From Streptomyces vilmorinianum (GTDB lineage Bacteria > Actinomycetota > Actinomycetes > Streptomycetales > Streptomycetaceae): a DNA stretch of 64,000 nt. Below the pieces are notes generated by a model. That model was not told the origin of the DNA. It did not search any database and saw only the letters and a program-made list of their open reading frames with translations. Numbering within the stretch: the stretch's first letter is position 1; each line of letters begins with the position of its first letter. Below, piece by piece: positions 57,342 through 64,000 of the stretch. Both the position numbers and the translations under genes were made by a program. The stretch is from positions 3,180,001 through 3,244,000 of the forward strand of contig NZ_CP040244.1 of assembly GCF_005517195.1 (NCBI RefSeq), given 5' to 3'.

Positions 57342-57878
57342 ATGAACAAGCAGCAGTTCTGGGAGCTCATCGCGGCAGCCCGCGACCAGGCGATCGTTCC
57401 ACACGAAAGCGAAGTGGTCGCTCGCGAGGCGACCTCGCTGTTGGCCGACCGGCCGGTCGAGGAGATTGTCGCCGCTGAGCACGTGCTGTGGGACCTGATG
57501 GTCGAGTCCTACAGCAATCCACTGTGGGCCGCTGCCTACATCGCCAACGGCGGGTGCTCCGACGACGGCTTCGACTACTTTCGCGGCTGGCTGATCGCTC
57601 AGGGCCGCGAGGTCTTCGAGCGCGCAGTCACTGATCCTGACGCCCTCGCGGAACTCCCCATCGTGCGAGCCGCCGCGGCCGGCCGCGTCGACCTTGAGGG
57701 GGAGGACATGCTGGGCATCGCCTGGAACGCGCACATCACGGCCACAGGTGATCAGCTTCCCGCGGGCCCACCCACCATCCGCTACTCGCAGCTGGACCCT
57801 GCCTGGGCCTTCGACTTCTCTGACTCAGACGAGATGGCTCGCCGCCTGCCGCGTCTGGCTGCTCTCTACCTGGAGTAA
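57342..57878 (+). CDS. DUF4240 family protein
   Basis: A 178-residue soluble protein with the family signature: MNKQQFWELIAAARDQAIVP, ADRPVEEIVAAEHVLWDLMV, CSDDGFDYFRGWLIAQG, and EDMLGIAWNAHI. DUF4240 proteins are common in actinobacteria and some are linked to toxin-antitoxin or immunity settings; function is unproven. Its TAA stop codon (57876-57878) is the first of four TAA triplets separating the IS units, so the IS chain inserted exactly at its stop and kept the protein intact. ATG 57342 has no strong ribosome site. Confidence 0.85.
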   Translation: MNKQQFWELIAAARDQAIVPHESEVVAREATSLLADRPVEEIVAAEHVLWDLMVESYSNPLWAAAYIANGGCSDDGFDYFRGWLIAQGREVFERAVTDPDALAELPIVRAAAAGRVDLEGEDMLGIAWNAHITATGDQLPAGPPTIRYSQLDPAWAFDFSDSDEMARRLPRLAALYLE

Positions 57879-57994
57879 GAAGCCGTATCTCAACCGAACA
57901 TGATCGCTTGGTTCCTGCTGGTCAGGCATAGTCTCGGTCGGGGTGAGGGAGACATCCGGCGTTCTGCTTCCGCTTGTTCGTCGAGGGGTGCGCG

Positions 57995-58543
57995 ATGGCG
58001 TCGATGCTGGGGTTGCTGGAAGCGCGGGAAGCGTCTGCCCGCGAGCGGGTAGAGGCCCTGCGGGAGGAGGCCGCCCGTGCGGCTGCGGCCTTGGAAGGTG
58101 GTGAGATCGAGCTGGACCGGCGGGTGATCGCACGCGAAGAGCTCGTCGACGCCCTGGCCGCATCCGCCGCCGAGACCACTGCCGCGACGGAGGCCGAAGG
58201 TGAGGGAGGAACGGTGCCCGCCCCCGTTCCCGCGCCTGCGTCCGCGTCGGTTCCGGGGGCTGTGGTGCCGCCTTGGCGGGAGGGGCTGGAGACGTCGGTG
58301 CTCTCGCCGGACAATCAGCGGATCTTGAATGTGGTGCAGGACCGGCCGGGTCTGGAACCCCTGCGGGCCAAGGACATCGCGGCCGTGATGGGCATCGACG
58401 CAGCGGTAGCAGCGAAGGTTGAGGGCGTGCGCTCGAAGGCGAAACGCCTGGCCGAGCGGGGCTGGTTGCTCCAGGAGGCGTCGGGGGCGTTCAGTGCTGG
58501 CCGGCGGCTCGTGGCCGGGCCAGGCGGCGGCCCATCCGCGTGA
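57995..58543 (+). CDS. Coiled-coil / winged-helix-like passenger protein
   Basis: A 182-residue protein: an N-terminal coiled coil (LLEAREASARERVEALREEA onward, about residues 5-65), a Pro/Ala linker, and a C-terminal domain with NQRILNVVQDRPG and RSKAKRLAERGWLLQEASG resembling a winged helix. Similar proteins, by recollection, commonly sit beside IS elements in Streptomyces. It converges on and overlaps the transposase by 53 bases, matching the pattern in IS-A and IS-B. ATG 57995 follows GAGGGGTGCGCG. Confidence 0.7.
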   Translation: MASMLGLLEAREASARERVEALREEAARAAAALEGGEIELDRRVIAREELVDALAASAAETTAATEAEGEGGTVPAPVPAPASASVPGAVVPPWREGLETSVLSPDNQRILNVVQDRPGLEPLRAKDIAAVMGIDAAVAAKVEGVRSKAKRLAERGWLLQEASGAFSAGRRLVAGPGGGPSA

Positions 58544-59186
58544 TCATCGAGAACAGGATCACCGCCTCGCTGGTCGCGGGCAACGTCTCGTAGTCACGGC
58601 ACAGACGCCGCGAGTGCATCAGCCAGCTCAGGGTGCGCTCGACCACCCACCGCCTCGGCAGCACCACGAACCCCTTCGTATCGTCGGTCCGTTTGACGAC
58701 TTCCACGGTCAGGGCGAGCTTCTCGCGGGCCCAGTCGATGAGGGCTCCGGTGTAGCCGCCGTCGGCCCAGACTAGGCAGATGTCCCGGTGCAGTTCGCGC
58801 AGCCGGGTCAGCAGGCCGGTGGCCGCTTCGCGGTCGCCCACGTTCGCGGCGGTCACGGCCACGACCAGCAGCAGGCCCAGGCAGTCGGTCACGATGTGCC
58901 GCTTCCGCCCATTGACCAGCTTCCCGCCGTCGAAGCCGCGTGAGGCGGCCGGCACCGTCGCGGCGGCCTTCACCGACTGCGCGTCGATGATCCCCGCCGT
59001 CGGTTCCGCCTCGCGCCCCTCGCGCTCCCGCAGCCAGCCGCGCAGCCGGTCATGGAACTCCGCGACCAGCCCGTTCTCGCGCCAGCGGCGGAAGAAGTCA
59101 TAGACCCGGGCCCAGCGGGGGAAGTCCGCGGGCATCGACCGCCAAGAGATCCCGCCCGCGACCAGGTAGCGGATCGCGTCCAGCAT
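58491..59186 (-). CDS. IS5-family transposase, N-terminus disrupted
   Basis: A 231-residue frame with the DDE core: first Asp in AGIIDAQSVKAA, second in VWADGGYTG, and Glu in RRWVVERTLSWL, plus GRKRHIVTDCLGLLLVV. The N-terminal helical part is displaced: upstream DNA contains LTEQYQEALLSLA in another frame before GRGGQPEGYCHRQ joins this frame, and a TGA at 59265-59267 closes it. So a frameshift near 59226-59240 has removed a normal start; ATG 59186 is internal. Probably inactive or activated only by frameshift. It overlaps the passenger gene tail-to-tail. Confidence 0.78.
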   Translation of the reverse strand: MLDAIRYLVAGGISWRSMPADFPRWARVYDFFRRWRENGLVAEFHDRLRGWLREREGREAEPTAGIIDAQSVKAAATVPAASRGFDGGKLVNGRKRHIVTDCLGLLLVVAVTAANVGDREAATGLLTRLRELHRDICLVWADGGYTGALIDWAREKLALTVEVVKRTDDTKGFVVLPRRWVVERTLSWLMHSRRLCRDYETLPATSEAVILFSMITRMGRRLARPRAAGQH

Positions 59187-59338
59187 CTGGCGGTGGCAGT
59201 AGCCCTCGGGCTGCCCGCCCCGGCCCTCCAGCCAGTGACAACAGGGCCTCCTGGTACTGCTCGGTCAGATTCGCATCCCCGAGCTACCGAGAGGCCCTGC
59301 CCTCATGCGCATACAGCCGGAAGATCACCCCATCAGGA

Positions 59339-59383
59339 ACCCTGTTCGATCAGAACCGTCCTCGTGATCGATAGGACGGCTTC
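59339..59383. repeat. Direct repeat copy 1 (IS5-type right end)
   Basis: The first 36 bases (59339-59374) are identical to 61022-61057, and both copies continue into ACGGCTTC after a 3-base length difference. Copy 2 ends at 61069. Both are right-end-like sequences of the same IS family, in the same orientation, bracketing the DUF6236 gene and the frameshifted gene. Confidence 0.85.
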
Positions 59384-59525
59384 TCAAGTCGGTCTGGCTG
59401 TCCCAGTCACGCAGGAAGACAGTCTCGGTGGAGCTCAGACGGAAGCACGTTGGAAGGCCCAGCACAGGACCTCTTCTGGCAATACTCTTGGGCTGGCCAG
59501 AGGCGGAGAGAGTACGGAGGTGCCG

Positions 59526-60704
59526 GTGTCGTCTATCGCTCTTTGCTATCCCTGGAGACACTTCCAGGATCCGGAATGGGTCAGGCTGTCCCTGCTCATG
59601 TGGGACAAGATCGCGCGTCTACGTCCCGAAGGACCGCGGGACCTCGATTCCCTGTCGGTTCGGCAAATCTGCAACGAGACCGATTTCCTTGTTGACATCG
59701 TACCCAGCGTGACCGACTTGGCGACGGTCACCGATGTCTTCTCTGAAGCTATCAGTGTGCACAGGAAGGAACTTGTGGACCGATACGGCCGACATGCACG
59801 GATCGACGACGATGAACGTTGGGCAATGGCTCCCAGCAACGTATTGGTTGTGGGGTCGGCTCGACACGATCTACACGCTGGCCCCAACGACCCACTGATT
59901 AGCTGGGAACTCGGCGAGTTGCTCGTGTCGTCAGACTTGGCTGACGACTTTCGACGAAACCAGCGTGGCGATCGCTGCTCGATTGGCGTTCGCCGCCAAC
60001 TCGGCTCTGTCTACCTTGCTGCGTTGACTGACGCGATCGCTCGCCACAACATGCTCTCGCCCGTCACCGATGACGCCCGCATGCACCGCGCTATGGGTGC
60101 GTTGGACCGCTTGCCCCAGATGCTGCTCAGCGACGAGGACCCAGCGATTGGACTCGAGAACGCTGATAGCGCCTACCTGCACGTCGCTCTGCAAGCGGTC
60201 ATTTATCCTCGGCAGTTGATGGACATTCCTCTGGCGAAGCTGATCAACTTCCGGGAACGCTATCGGGCCGAGCTTACCGCTTTCCGTCAGCACATCGCCG
60301 ATCTCTCCAGCGAACTGCAAATCATTGCCTCAGTCGAGAACTTAGTGGTTACGCAGGCTCACCTGGAGTCCCTGTACGAACGAGTCACCAAGCCGCAGCT
60401 CGAAGAACTCCGCAGGGCATTGCGAGGGATGGGTATCGAGTCGACCACTGGGGCGATGGACCTGAAGATTGACATCAACGCTGCTGCCGGCACGATTGTT
60501 GGAGGGGTGGCTGCCGCAGGAGGACAGTTTACCGTTGCCAGTGCGGCAGTGGCCATCACTGTCCTGCCGTACGTTGCCAGTAGATTCCAGATACGCCGTC
60601 AAAGCATCGCGTCCTCTCCAGTGGCCTTCCTCCTCGCCGCCAACCGCGAACTCACCCATAAGTCACTGCTTCACACACGATCAGGCCGGTGGCGTTGGTG
60701 CTAG
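59526..60704 (+). CDS. DUF6236-like protein
   Basis: A 392-residue protein opening VSSIALCYPWRHFQDPEWVR and containing LSLLMWDKIARLRPEGPRDL, which fits the DUF6236 family (function unknown). The central part is mostly helical; a Gly/Ala-rich hydrophobic stretch AGTIVGGVAAAGGQFTVASA lies near the C-terminus. GTG 59526 follows GGAGG (59516-59520). Codon third positions are visibly less GC-rich than flanking genes, suggesting recent transfer. It sits between the two direct repeats and overlaps the frameshifted gene by a shared CTAG. Confidence 0.68.
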   Translation: MSSIALCYPWRHFQDPEWVRLSLLMWDKIARLRPEGPRDLDSLSVRQICNETDFLVDIVPSVTDLATVTDVFSEAISVHRKELVDRYGRHARIDDDERWAMAPSNVLVVGSARHDLHAGPNDPLISWELGELLVSSDLADDFRRNQRGDRCSIGVRRQLGSVYLAALTDAIARHNMLSPVTDDARMHRAMGALDRLPQMLLSDEDPAIGLENADSAYLHVALQAVIYPRQLMDIPLAKLINFRERYRAELTAFRQHIADLSSELQIIASVENLVVTQAHLESLYERVTKPQLEELRRALRGMGIESTTGAMDLKIDINAAAGTIVGGVAAAGGQFTVASAAVAITVLPYVASRFQIRRQSIASSPVAFLLAANRELTHKSLLHTRSGRWRWC

Positions 60705-61023
60705 CGCCCCCGGACGTCGCTTGCCGCTTTGTGCACCCGGCGAAGCTGGTCTTCGAGGTTGGTGGCGGTGGTGGCGGCCTCACTGATGACACGGGCGACA
60801 GCGGTGGCGTCGTCGCGGGCCATCCGGTCGGTGGCGGCTGAGGTTTGCAGCAGGATCTGGGGCAGATGTTGCGCAAGGTTGTGGAGGTCGTGCAGGAGGA
60901 GGCCGCCCTGCGGGGGTCGTCGATTTCGGCCTTGCCGCTGTAAAGGTCCTCTGACAGTTGGCGCAGGGTCTTGGCCGCGTCGCGGGAGAGGGAGCTGGGG
61001 TCGTACGGCACCCGACCAGGCAC
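60701..61023 (-). pseudogene. Frameshifted small gene
   Basis: Minus-strand frame from 61023 reads MPGRVPYDPSSLSRDAAKTL..AEIDDPRRAA; after one lost base near 60909 a second frame gives LLLHDLHNLAQHLPQ..TSAATDRMARDD..LEDQLRRVHKAASDVRGR. Together they form a plausible helical protein of about 107 residues with one nucleotide deletion. The start lies directly against direct repeat copy 2. I do not recognise the family. Confidence 0.6.
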
Positions 61024-61069
61024 CCTGTTCGATCAGAACCGTCCTCGTGATCGATAGAAATACGGCTTC
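61022..61069. repeat. Direct repeat copy 2 (IS5-type right end)
   Basis: Identical over 36 bases to copy 1. It ends ATACGGCTTC at 61069, the exact complement of the unit C left end, and is followed by TAA and IS-A. Confidence 0.85.
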
Positions 61070-61112
61070 TAAGACGTCGTTTCCTTTGGTGTCCGACGGT
61101 CGTTGACGGTGC

Positions 61113-61945
61113 GTGGACCGTCTTGTTGAGCAGTTGGTTCCGGAGGATCTGTGGGAGCTGTTTCGGCGGGTGGTGCCGCCGACGGTGGTGCATCGGCCGC
61201 AGGGTGGGGGACGTCGGCGGGCCGGGGATCGTGAGGTGCTGGCCGCGATTGTGTTCGTGGCGACGTCGGGCTGCACCTGGCGGCAGCTTCCGCCGGTCTT
61301 CGGGGCTTGCTGGCAAACGGTGTACAAGCGGTTCGCGCGTTGGAGCCGCGAGCGTGTGTGGGCCCGTCTCTACCGGGTCATCCTGGACGAGCTCGGCTCA
61401 CGCGGGCAGCTCGACTGGTCCAGGTGCGCGATCGACTCGGTGAGCATCCGAGCCCTCAAAGGGGGCATCTGACGGGACCGAATCCGACCGATCGCGGCAA
61501 GAAGGGATCGAAGATCCATCTGATCTGCGACCGCACCGGCCTGCCGATCTCACTCGCGATCTCGGGCGCCAACCTGCACGACAGCCAGGCCCTGGAGCCC
61601 CTGGTTCGCGGCATCCCACTGATCCGCTCACGCCGTGGACCACGTCGACGCCGCCCCGCCAAACTGCACGGCGACAAGGGCTACGACTACGACCATCTGC
61701 GCCGATGGCTGCGCGAGCGCGGCATCGTGCCGCGGATCGCCCTCCGCGGCGTCGAGTCCTCCCAACGCCTGGGCAGCCATCGCTGGGTCGTGGAACGCAC
61801 GATGTCCTGGCTTGCCGGCTGCCGTCGCCTGCACCGGCGATACGAGCGCAAGGCCGAGCACTTCCTCGCCTTCGCGGGCATTTCCGCGGCCCTCATCTGC
61901 CACCGCCGTCTCGTCCGTGCGGACGCGCAAAACCGGTCAGCGTGA
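61113..61945 (+). CDS. IS5-family transposase, two-frame (IS-A)
   Basis: Frame 1 (61113-61472) runs VDRLVEQLVPEDLWELFRRV to CAIDSVSIRALKGG (first catalytic Asp) and stops. Frame 2, shifted -1, continues GPNPTDRGKKGSKIHLICDR..HGDKGYDYDHL (Asp) and SHRWVVERTMSW (Glu) to 61945. Joining needs a -1 shift at the run CTCAAAGGGGG (61455-61465). The DDE triad is complete across both parts, consistent with programmed frameshifting. Start GTG 61113. Confidence 0.88.
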
Positions 61946-62371
61946 GCTTGCTCCAACGCTGAACGCCCAGACCCGGAGGGGAACCACCTCCGACTCTGCC
62001 GCGCCCGCCTCACTGTCGGCCAGGAACCTCTCGATGACTGGCCCGAGGCCGTCAGAAAGTGCGTAGGCGCCGTCGAACGGCAACGCATCCGCCGGAACCG
62101 ATCCCGTCGAGCACCGAAGCTGCCCGGCCTGCTCGTCGTGCCACACGTAGAACGTCGCCACCCCGGGAAAGCCCAGCTCGCGGATACGGACCTGGATGGC
62201 TGACGCTGTCCTCTCGAAGGCGGCCACCACCGTGGAGACGGACAACGACCTCCTGTCCTCGTCCTCTGCACTCACCCACCAGGTGTTGGTCTCCCACTCC
62301 ACCCGACGGTCAGCCGGCTCCAGTACCAGAGGCTCGTACGCCACCTCGGCGATCCACGTCAACAGCACCAC
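61937..62371 (-). CDS. Antisense passenger gene of IS-A
   Basis: A 144-residue acidic protein: VVLLTWIAEVAYEPLVLEPA, TNTWWVSAEDEDRRSLSVS, IRELGFPGVATFYVWHDEQA. It appears to be an alpha/beta cytoplasmic protein with no known motif. The GTG at 62371 follows CGGGGATACTGCT, and the whole gene lies inside the terminal repeats. Its 3' end overlaps the transposase by nine bases. Function unknown; possibly an acquired host gene. Confidence 0.7.
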   Translation of the reverse strand: MVLLTWIAEVAYEPLVLEPADRRVEWETNTWWVSAEDEDRRSLSVSTVVAAFERTASAIQVRIRELGFPGVATFYVWHDEQAGQLRCSTGSVPADALPFDGAYALSDGLGPVIERFLADSEAGAAESEVVPLRVWAFSVGASSR

Positions 62372-62496
62372 AGCAGTATCCCCGCATAGCCCATGGCCCC
62401 AGAAACCGCCATAAGAAACGACGTCTAACTGATCGTTTCAGAATGAGTTGAGCTGCGGGTCTTGCACTTGCCGATCTTGGTCGGCAGGGTGTCCGG

Positions 62497-63344
62497 GTGC
62501 GTGCTGATCTTGTTCCTGACGACCTGTGGGAGCGGGTGGCCCCGCTGCTGCCGCCCGCCCCCGAACGGCGCCGCCGGCATCCCGGGCGGCTTCGCGTTCC
62601 GGACCGGGCGGCTCTCGCGGGCATCATGTACGTTCTGCGGACCGGCGTCGCCTGGCGCGACGTCCCGGCCGAGACCGTGGGCTGTTCAGGGGTGACGGCC
62701 TGGCGCCGGTTGCGGGACTGGACCGAGGCCGGCGTCTGGCCACGCCTGCACGCCGCCCTGCTGACCGAACTGCGCCGCGCCGACTTGCTGGACCTGGACG
62801 ACTGCTCCGTGGACGGATCACATGTCCGGGCCCTCAAAGGGGGGATCACGTCGGCCCCTCGCCCGTCGACCGTGCCCGCCCCGGTTCCAAGCATCACCTG
62901 ATCGTCGACCGGCACGGAACCCCGCTTGCCGTCACGCTCACCGGCGGCAACCGGCACGACGTCACCCAGCTCCTGCCGCTGCTCGACGCCGTCCCGTCGA
63001 TCCGGGGCAGGCGGGGACGTCCACGCCGCAAGCCCCGGCGCCTGTATGCCGACCGGGGCTACGACTTCGACAAGTACCGCCGCCTGCTGTGGAAGCGCGG
63101 CATCAAACCGCTGATCGCCCGACGCGGCGTCGCTCACGGCTCCGGACTGGGCAAGGTGCGCTGGGTCGTCGAGCGCACCTTCGCCTGGCTGCACCAGTTC
63201 AAACGACTCCGCACCCGCTACGAACGACGCACTGACATCCACCAGGGCCTGCTCGACCTGGCCTGCAGCCTCATATGCCTGCGCCGACTCCCACGAACGG
63301 CCAATTGCTCGGTCAGTAGCGGAGGTGGGCTTCAGCCCCATTGA
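62497..63344 (+). CDS. IS5-family transposase, two-frame (IS-B)
   Basis: Frame 1 from GTG 62497 reads VRADLVPDDLWERVAPLLPP through DCSVDGSHVRALKGG (Asp). A -1 shift at CTCAAAGGGGGG (62833-62844) leads to GDHVGPSPVDRARPGSKHH, LYADRGYDFDKY (Asp) and VRWVVERTFAWL (Glu), ending 63344. The transposase differs clearly from IS-A in sequence but uses the same shift site and RALKGG context. Confidence 0.88.
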
Positions 63345-63621
63345 TACGCACCATGCAGTCCTTGAAGAGCTGCAACGGAGTCTGCTGGCCGTCAACCGGA
63401 GCCAGTGTGAGCCCCAAATCCTGCAACGGCTTGGCCAGGGAGACGAACCTGAGCCCATCCGGGTCCGGGCCCCTGTAGGTCGCCCATGCCTCGAACAACG
63501 GCCTCACGCTCTCCCAGCCAGGTCCCGGGGTGAAGCGCGCCAGGAAGAACGGCTGATCACAGCCGTACTCACTGAGCTCACCGACCAGGACGTCTCCCTG
63601 CAAGAGCTGCCACCGCGTCAT
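63313..63621 (-). CDS. Antisense passenger gene of IS-B
   Basis: A 102-residue protein: MTRWQLLQGDVLVGELSEYG, CDQPFFLARFTPGPGWESVR, LFKDCMVRINGAEAHLRY. The compact alpha/beta pattern is that of a real protein; I recall similar uncharacterised Streptomyces proteins but no function. ATG 63621 follows GGGGGACGGGGAC and is inside the terminal repeat; a longer frame from 63732 would cross the IS end and is not favoured. It overlaps the transposase tail by 32 bases. Confidence 0.7.
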   Translation of the reverse strand: MTRWQLLQGDVLVGELSEYGCDQPFFLARFTPGPGWESVRPLFEAWATYRGPDPDGLRFVSLAKPLQDLGLTLAPVDGQQTPLQLFKDCMVRINGAEAHLRY

Positions 63622-63745
63622 CTGGTGTCCCCGTCCCCCACCGCCCAGTCGAGTTCGCATCATCGCAGCGCCTAACTCTCTGGCCAAGCGCTTCATTCTG
63701 AAACGATCAGTAAGCCGCGGCCGGAGCCACACCTATTGAGAAGCG

Positions 63746-64000
63746 CTACGGGCAATCGCTGTTCGAATACCGCAGCCAGTGCCTTGACGAGTTGGCACCA
63801 TGAGGTGTCTTCGAAAGAGGGTGAGCCTCCAGCAGTTCCTCGATCCGCTCCGCCAGTAGTTTCCGCTGGTCAAGCACGGCAGCAAGCGAAGTGGCGAGGC
63901 TCGGGACGATCGGCGCGGCTGCCTCACCCTGGACCGGTGACGGTGTGCCGGTCCAGGGGGCGCCGAAGATCTCCTCGACCAGCCCGGTATCCCGCGGTGC
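63746..64000 (-). pseudogene. IS110-family transposase fragment, runs off the right edge
   Basis: The minus-strand frame open from 64000 reads EEIFGAPWTGTPSPVQGEAA, IVPSLATSLAAVLDQRKLLA, ERIEELLEAHPLSK. The LDQR..LAERIEELLEAHPLSK block is a known IS110-type linker before the conserved SMPGVG region; here the frame then degenerates to a stop at 63746, with GIRTA-like residues in another frame. It is on the opposite strand to the remnant at 57011, so the two are not halves of one copy. Confidence 0.68.

Follow-up and report, generated by a model that had tools for sequence, protein, structure and literature searches.

Three IS5-family units lie end to end between TAA triplets at the stop codon of a DUF4240 gene in Streptomyces vilmorinianum, within a stretch of 64,000 nucleotides (here called the window; contig NZ_CP040244.1, positions 3,180,001 to 3,244,000) of a genome that consists of one 7.65-Mb contig. 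We read the units as passenger-carrying insertion sequence (IS) elements that stack, the function of their cargo being putative. In all likelihood, the three elements entered successively at one TAA, a rare target was remade by insertion, and each of them carries a passenger gene. An earlier note on this DNA had proposed the serial insertion; the present analysis adds the target rule that would let chains grow, and the cargo slot.

The TAA triplets stand exactly where the earlier note had placed them (57876, 61070, 62426, and 63711), and the end triplet of each unit is the start triplet of the next. Between successive triplets lie unit C (3191 bp), IS-A (1353 bp), and IS-B (1282 bp). The inverted repeats had been called perfect, which is true of IS-B (18/18 bp) but not of IS-A and unit C (15/18 each), where they are perfect over the outer 11 bp and the outer 10 bp, respectively. 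A scan for a TNA pair with inverted repeats in the window end and 120 related loci yielded 84 units versus 7 after block shuffling; some of the 84 have no transposase match and are probably due to chance. Chance TAA triplets at the junctions are ruled out by this shuffled control and by a second copy of IS-B.

Each unit was expected to exist apart from the chain. IS-B does so with its own TAA pair, and other genomes have elements with the ends of IS-A and of unit C. The second IS-B copy (genome positions 6393186-6394470) is alone between unrelated genes, with TAA on both sides and the cargo inside, and it differs from the window copy by 3 single-base gaps in about 1280 bp, all in G/C-rich runs. 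At these three places the second copy (L002 1504-2782; L numbers denote loci) is one base short, and the transposase reading frames differ between the copies; the differences are either real mutations or read errors. Among GTDB genomes, S. anulatus (TTA/TTA) shares the 1282-bp IS-B and its cargo, as does S. griseus in two copies (TAA/TAA and TAA/TTA), all at separate sites. The same cargo-B gene thus lies within the same ends in the second copy and in other species, indicating that the passenger gene is inside the transposing unit. IS-A with its cargo gene occurs on plasmids of S. cadmiisoli (TTA/TTA), Streptomyces sp. NBC_00015 (TAA/TAA), and S. zaomyceticus (TAA/TGA), and IS-A-type ends with TAA/TTA flank elements in other places. 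Unit-C-type elements of 1650-1659 bp with 16-18/18 matching ends are present in L274, L276, L280, L283, and L284, those of L274 and L276 being bounded by TGA (18/18 and 17/18). Inspection of 93 places with A- or B-type transposases gave 61 elements for which the two ends could be located, three of them from this genome. In eight of the 61 (L194, L200, L222, L225, L253, L254, L255, and L256), TTA at one side is paired with TAA at the other, possibly through recombination between copies.

How could different elements come to be joined at a single triplet? The context of the triplets suggests a rule. CTWAG surrounds the triplet at 28 of 60 transposase-bearing units with equal triplets, the three window units counted; with the window left out, the figures are 12/31 for A relatives, 10/15 for B relatives, and 1/7 for C relatives. 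The middle base of the triplet is A or T in all A and B relatives with equal triplets (31/31 and 15/15) and in 2/7 C relatives. CTWAG occurs twice in 57,875 non-IS window bases, versus 38.6 sites expected from base composition, and 1.14 Mb of related loci hold 84 sites away from IS ends and another 72 at IS ends. Its frequency in the window and the related loci is about one-tenth of the composition-based expectation, or lower. The transposases thus favor sites of this rare, CTWAG-like kind, of which they duplicate the central TWA (TNA for the element IS-C within unit C). Since G is the first and C the last base of both unit C and IS-A, either of them inserting at C-TWA-G would leave C-TWA-G at both new junctions, so the target would be multiplied and not consumed. 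Junctions would then be scarce landing places harmless to genes, and we infer that elements accumulate at them for these two reasons.

Chaining is general among these elements. Another element's terminal repeat adjoins 15 of the 61 elements (13/59 outside the window chain), a rate that is not genome-wide because the loci were picked by transposase similarity. At the level of single ends, 17/122 match another repeat, whereas 200 shuffled lists gave 1.2 matches on average and never more than 6. The 18 terminal repeats used in this search came mostly from the same loci, and the nearest right end was taken; elements with two right ends may be undercounted. Chains were found by a scan for neighboring units in 8/121 loci, including the window, with some partner units having no match to the three transposases, and a ninth, gapless chain was read in L279 (IS-A - TTA - IS-C - TTA - IS-A). 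On plasmid NZ_CP016083.1 of Streptomyces sp. SAT1 (L313 3901-7466), three elements are joined gaplessly by TAA, an independent counterpart of the window chain; the repeat GACCGTGTCC, originally taken from a flank, was later found to be a genuine 18/18 end there. Two elements are joined by TTA on an S. albidoflavus plasmid.

Are IS ends actively preferred, the transposase recognizing a resident terminal repeat and inserting beside it, beyond the plain CTWAG preference? Target regeneration alone would by a rough estimate account for about 6% of insertions, compared with the 15/61 elements observed beside another IS end, so there may be an excess. The estimate assumes about 30 such elements per genome, a guessed copy number, with each end offering about 0.6 CTWAG, and compares these with the other CTWAG sites, of which there are about 74 per Mb. 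Selection against insertion into genes would likewise enrich junctions, however, many copies are at lone CTWAG sites, and the flanking ends are of several repeat types, so that no one repeat is recognized. Active preference is unlikely.

The site without the elements was sought with a query of the joined flanks, which matched DUF4240 homologs. Twenty loci were fetched, one being the window itself; the 19 relatives have 75-86% DNA identity to its DUF4240 gene. In one of them, L086 (genome G020; 85% identity over DUF4240), the sequence after the stop codon matches the right flank of the chain with a local score of 43, versus a maximum of 26 in 200 shuffles. The right flank lies behind the DUF4240 stop there, indicating a site empty of IS, whereas the other 18 relatives score within their shuffles. 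The expected empty site was therefore recovered in one IS-free relative as far as the flank is concerned, but not as a TAA. Together with the second IS-B copy, the recurring ends, and the different elements at the two outer ends, L086 supports serial insertion, each element entering the TAA left by a prior one, as the best reading.

Several observations weigh against this account. The stop codon of L086 is TGA, about 60 bases between the window TAA and the flank match have no counterpart in L086, and the right flank is seen in just 1/19 DUF4240 relatives. Exact CTWAG is absent from the sites of more than half of the 60 units, and the junctions of IS-B are not CTWAG, since this element has C as its first base and G as its last. 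The terminal repeats used were largely derived from the same loci in which chaining was tested, and some of the loci selected by transposase similarity come from one genome. Finally, no relative was found in which this TAA holds just one or two of the window elements, so the insertion order rests on target preference. When the six orders were weighed by this preference with a flat prior, C-A-B had a posterior of 0.74, three others had 0.08 each, and the last two had <0.01. Most likely, unit C came first, IS-A second, and IS-B third.

It is also conceivable, if improbable, that the DUF4240 stop codon is itself a hot spot or that DUF4240 is a member of a cargo array. In genome G017 (L294), an IS-A-like terminal repeat with 3/16 mismatches lies directly behind the DUF4240 stop TGA, and none of 57,000 window positions (one strand) is as close; moreover, DUF4240 proteins serve as IS cargo elsewhere, those of L246 and L249 being identified by Pfam and that of L248 by likeness. 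Yet among the 20 DUF4240 loci with flanks read by eye, such an end was seen only in the window and in L294/L085, and L294 has no second element end. A candidate IS end at the DUF4240 stop in L084/L293 was rejected, as the inverted partner of its post-stop sequence is no better than at random positions. Like L294, L085 has the repeat right after the stop TGA and no second end nearby; the repeat in these two loci is perhaps an independent insertion at the same codon. That the chain was assembled elsewhere and reached DUF4240 in one event, by recombination or one large transposition, is very improbable: this place may have been rearranged, given the roughly 60 bp without an L086 counterpart, but GAAGCCGTAT and CTGATCGTTT, at the two outer ends, come from different elements, which should put the block beyond the reach of any one transposase, and no second full copy of unit C or IS-A, hence no source chain, was found in the genome.

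Table 1. Features of the window chain and of the chain on the SAT1 plasmid
Feature	Position	Strand	Remarks
DUF4240 gene; its stop codon is the first TAA	57342..57878	+	Pfam DUF4240, 129 bits (cut-off 27)
TAA 1, probable original target (GTAAG) and DUF4240 stop	57876..57878		
Unit C, IS-C type element, outer right end enclosing cargo	57879..61069		15/18 inverted repeats, TAA both sides; ends recur in L274, L276
ORF1 of IS-C, kept beside its transposase	57974..58543	+	63-65% in L274, L276
IS-C transposase, 231 aa	58491..59186	-	NF033580, 161 bits; DDE_Tnp_1, 93 bits
Inner, altered right end of IS-C	59326..59388		Direct repeat of 61009-61073, bases altered near end
Cargo gene C, DUF6236	59520..60704	+	Pfam DUF6236, 92.6 bits (cut-off 26.2)
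Outer right end of unit C, in use	61009..61069		
TAA 2, common to unit C and IS-A (CTAAG)	61070..61072		
IS-A, 1353 bp	61073..62425		
IS-A transposase, upstream ORF	61113..61472	+	DUF4096; NF033580, 99 bits, under cut-off
Frame with IS-A transposase downstream ORF (used from ~61451)	61307..61945	+	DDE_Tnp_1; NF033580, 136 bits
Cargo gene A, 144 aa, unnamed family	61937..62371	-	Tail to tail with transposase; no Pfam or NCBIfam family
TAA 3, common to IS-A and IS-B	62426..62428		
IS-B, 1282 bp	62429..63710		18/18 inverted repeats; second genomic copy with TAA both sides
IS-B transposase, upstream ORF	62497..62901	+	DUF4096; NF033580, 97 bits, under cut-off
Frame with IS-B transposase downstream ORF (used from ~62844)	62526..63344	+	DDE_Tnp_1; NF033580, 140 bits
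Cargo gene B, 102 aa, unnamed family	63313..63621	-	No Pfam/NCBIfam family match; predicted fold pLDDT 93.5
TAA 4, right end of chain	63711..63713		
Right flank, behind DUF4240 stop in IS-free relative L086	63772..63808		
SAT1 element 1	L313 3904-5186		16/18 ends; transposase and DUF2750 (Imm16) gene
SAT1 element 2	L313 5190-6059		18/18 ends, 870 bp
SAT1 element 3	L313 6063-7463		IS-A type, with further small gene

Each window unit also carries one gene unrelated to transposition, and the small genes of IS-A and IS-B each run towards the transposase. Homologs of cargo A are present in 18/199 genomes of the genus, this one counted, and the nearest named homologs of cargo B are in Streptomyces. 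The best PDB match to the predicted fold of cargo B has an E value of 0.21, and PADLOC gave no anti-phage defense match for the four small proteins. Of 36 cargo-B loci (fragments L354 and L355 set aside), the IS-B right end is found in 13/14 at ≥70% identity and, weakly, in 1/20 at 50-64%, indicating that the cargo-B gene also exists outside ISs and that one clade is IS cargo. Reading by eye recognized an ankyrin-like gene in L345 and a SUKH-like gene in L335 beside cargo-B homologs, no polymorphic toxin beside the non-IS homologs in L335, L337, L340, L345, and L353, and no toxin among the open reading frames (ORFs) around the window chain. On S. anulatus plasmid NZ_CP109253.1 (L314 1229-5283), IS-B with cargo B lies downstream of two genes, one for a polymorphic toxin (pretoxin-HINT and AHH nuclease domains) and a small one that follows it. 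The dN/dS ratios are 0.24-0.51 for cargo-B homologs (10 comparisons), 0.13-0.27 for DUF4240 cargo (3 comparisons), and 0.20-0.32 for cargo A (9 comparisons; an IS location is established for part of the homologs only), indicating that the three tested cargo genes are kept under purifying selection.

Simple and loaded forms were told apart in the 61 elements by the distance from the transposase match to the right end. Taking the nearest right end, this distance is ≤60 bp in 40, 61-300 bp in 0, and >300 bp in 21; taking the outermost right end with an equal triplet, 35 elements are simple and 26 carry 369-1132 bp, 22/26 with equal triplets. The loaded share is thus 21-26/61, depending on the end rule. 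Weak cases among the 26 are L200 and L205 (unequal triplets, doubtful ends) and L254 and L256 (TTA paired with TAA); the scoring used detected no ORF in L240, L252, or L269, and in L269 and one L279 element the triplet is shared by an inner right end as well. Loaded and simple elements show no real difference in chaining (8/26 versus 7/35).

The cargo of relatives is diverse. Pfam identifies DUF6896 (L199), DUF4240 (L246 and L249), GNAT (two), and ankyrin, as well as SMI1_KNR4, with one case just above the cut-off and two below; other cargo consists of an unnamed recurring family in L254, L256, and L258, cargo A, and cargo B. The SAT1 cargo matches DUF2750 with 58 bits (cut-off 27). DUF2750 is Imm16, and SUKH and ankyrin are immunity types, according to the accessible text of PMC3482391. 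Known immunity families therefore occur in the cargo of relatives (DUF2750/Imm16, SMI1_KNR4, and ankyrin), the window cargo being DUF6236 and two unnamed families, and for several of the cargo families an immunity role is plausible.

How might an element acquire its cargo? Unit C has two right ends in the same direction with DUF6236 between them. In four IS-B relatives (L198, L199, L201, and L202), the inner right end, 24 bp past the transposase match, is altered, and the outer one, about 490 bp beyond it, is intact; a DUF6896-like gene separates the two (by Pfam in L199, alike by eye in the others). The outer triplet equals the left triplet in 3/4 of them, and the inner triplet does so in 0/4. 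No inner right end was seen in the window copies of IS-A and IS-B. With the inner end altered and the outer end intact, the second right end seems to have taken over, which suggests that cargo may be captured when a second right end, perhaps left over from another copy, is used in place of the first. A second element is one candidate source of the outer end of unit C: the right ends of L279 and L285 match the outer end at 94% and the inner end at 92% and 85%.

All three units have an IS5-type DDE transposase, since that of unit C and the downstream ORFs of IS-A and IS-B score above the 110-bit cut-off of the NCBIfam IS5 model NF033580, and terminal inverted repeats (15-18/18) with a short target duplication (TAA each) likewise agree with the IS5 family. 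The earlier label, IS1031-type, suits the 3-bp TNA target, found as TAA at each junction, and the single transposase ORF of unit C, but not IS-A and IS-B, whose two overlapping ORFs, with a CTCAAAGGGGG(G) run in the overlap and a predicted frameshift, have the layout of IS427. Conversely, unit C lacks this two-ORF layout, and no junction has the 2-bp duplication of IS427, which most Paracoccus IS427 examples show in the accessible text of PMC3281130. A comparable IS427/IS1031 mixture has been reported for the Leifsonia elements IS1237/ISLxx6, for which a further group was proposed (PMC2516522, accessible text); these too have an NF033580 DDE transposase and short inverted repeats. IS-A and IS-B resemble that mixture in combining overlapping ORFs at an A/G run with a 3-bp duplication. 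Unlike the IS427/IS1031 groups as that text describes them, the window elements have a passenger gene inside their ends, a CTWAG context, and chains.

Multimers of PIF/Harbinger-type elements are found in plants. Judging from the accessible text of PMC2213677, these eukaryotic transposons share an IS5-related transposase and a TTA/TAA target duplication with the window elements, which differ in being bacterial and in having a cargo slot. Transporter ISs, in the part of PMC3129680 available, are also IS-sized, with their own ends and a passenger gene moved along; here, unlike those, one clade has a slot that takes many alternative cargoes, with loaded elements occurring alongside simple ones. 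Polyimmunity loci are comparable as rows of small unrelated immunity genes; the available part of PMC3482391 suggests XerC/D recombinases as their assemblers, whereas the window chain has transposases and no toxin recognized by eye. We put forward, tentatively and against the odds, that these elements form a mobile-gene stacking system in which interchangeable immunity-like genes would be piled head to tail via remade targets, a transposase-built counterpart of integrons and polyimmunity loci. If so, the stacking row would be DUF4240, DUF6236, cargo A, and cargo B in the window and would begin with DUF2750 (Imm16) on the SAT1 plasmid. Among the matches listed in open-licence PMC literature, titles and abstract openings describe no IS5 cargo slot or such chains in Streptomyces. 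An insertion that remakes its rare target would be a simple, testable rule for chains of different ISs, and very small elements with diverse single genes in one slot would let defense-like genes move between sites and replicons. The plasmid records examined list such cargo genes individually, as hypothetical or DUF proteins next to an IS5 transposase.

To the right of the chain, positions 63809-64000 of the window have no Pfam match and resemble what we take to be the C-terminal part of an IS110-type transposase. This piece is a fragment of a repeat that is present, about 74-85% identical, in very many genomes of the genus.

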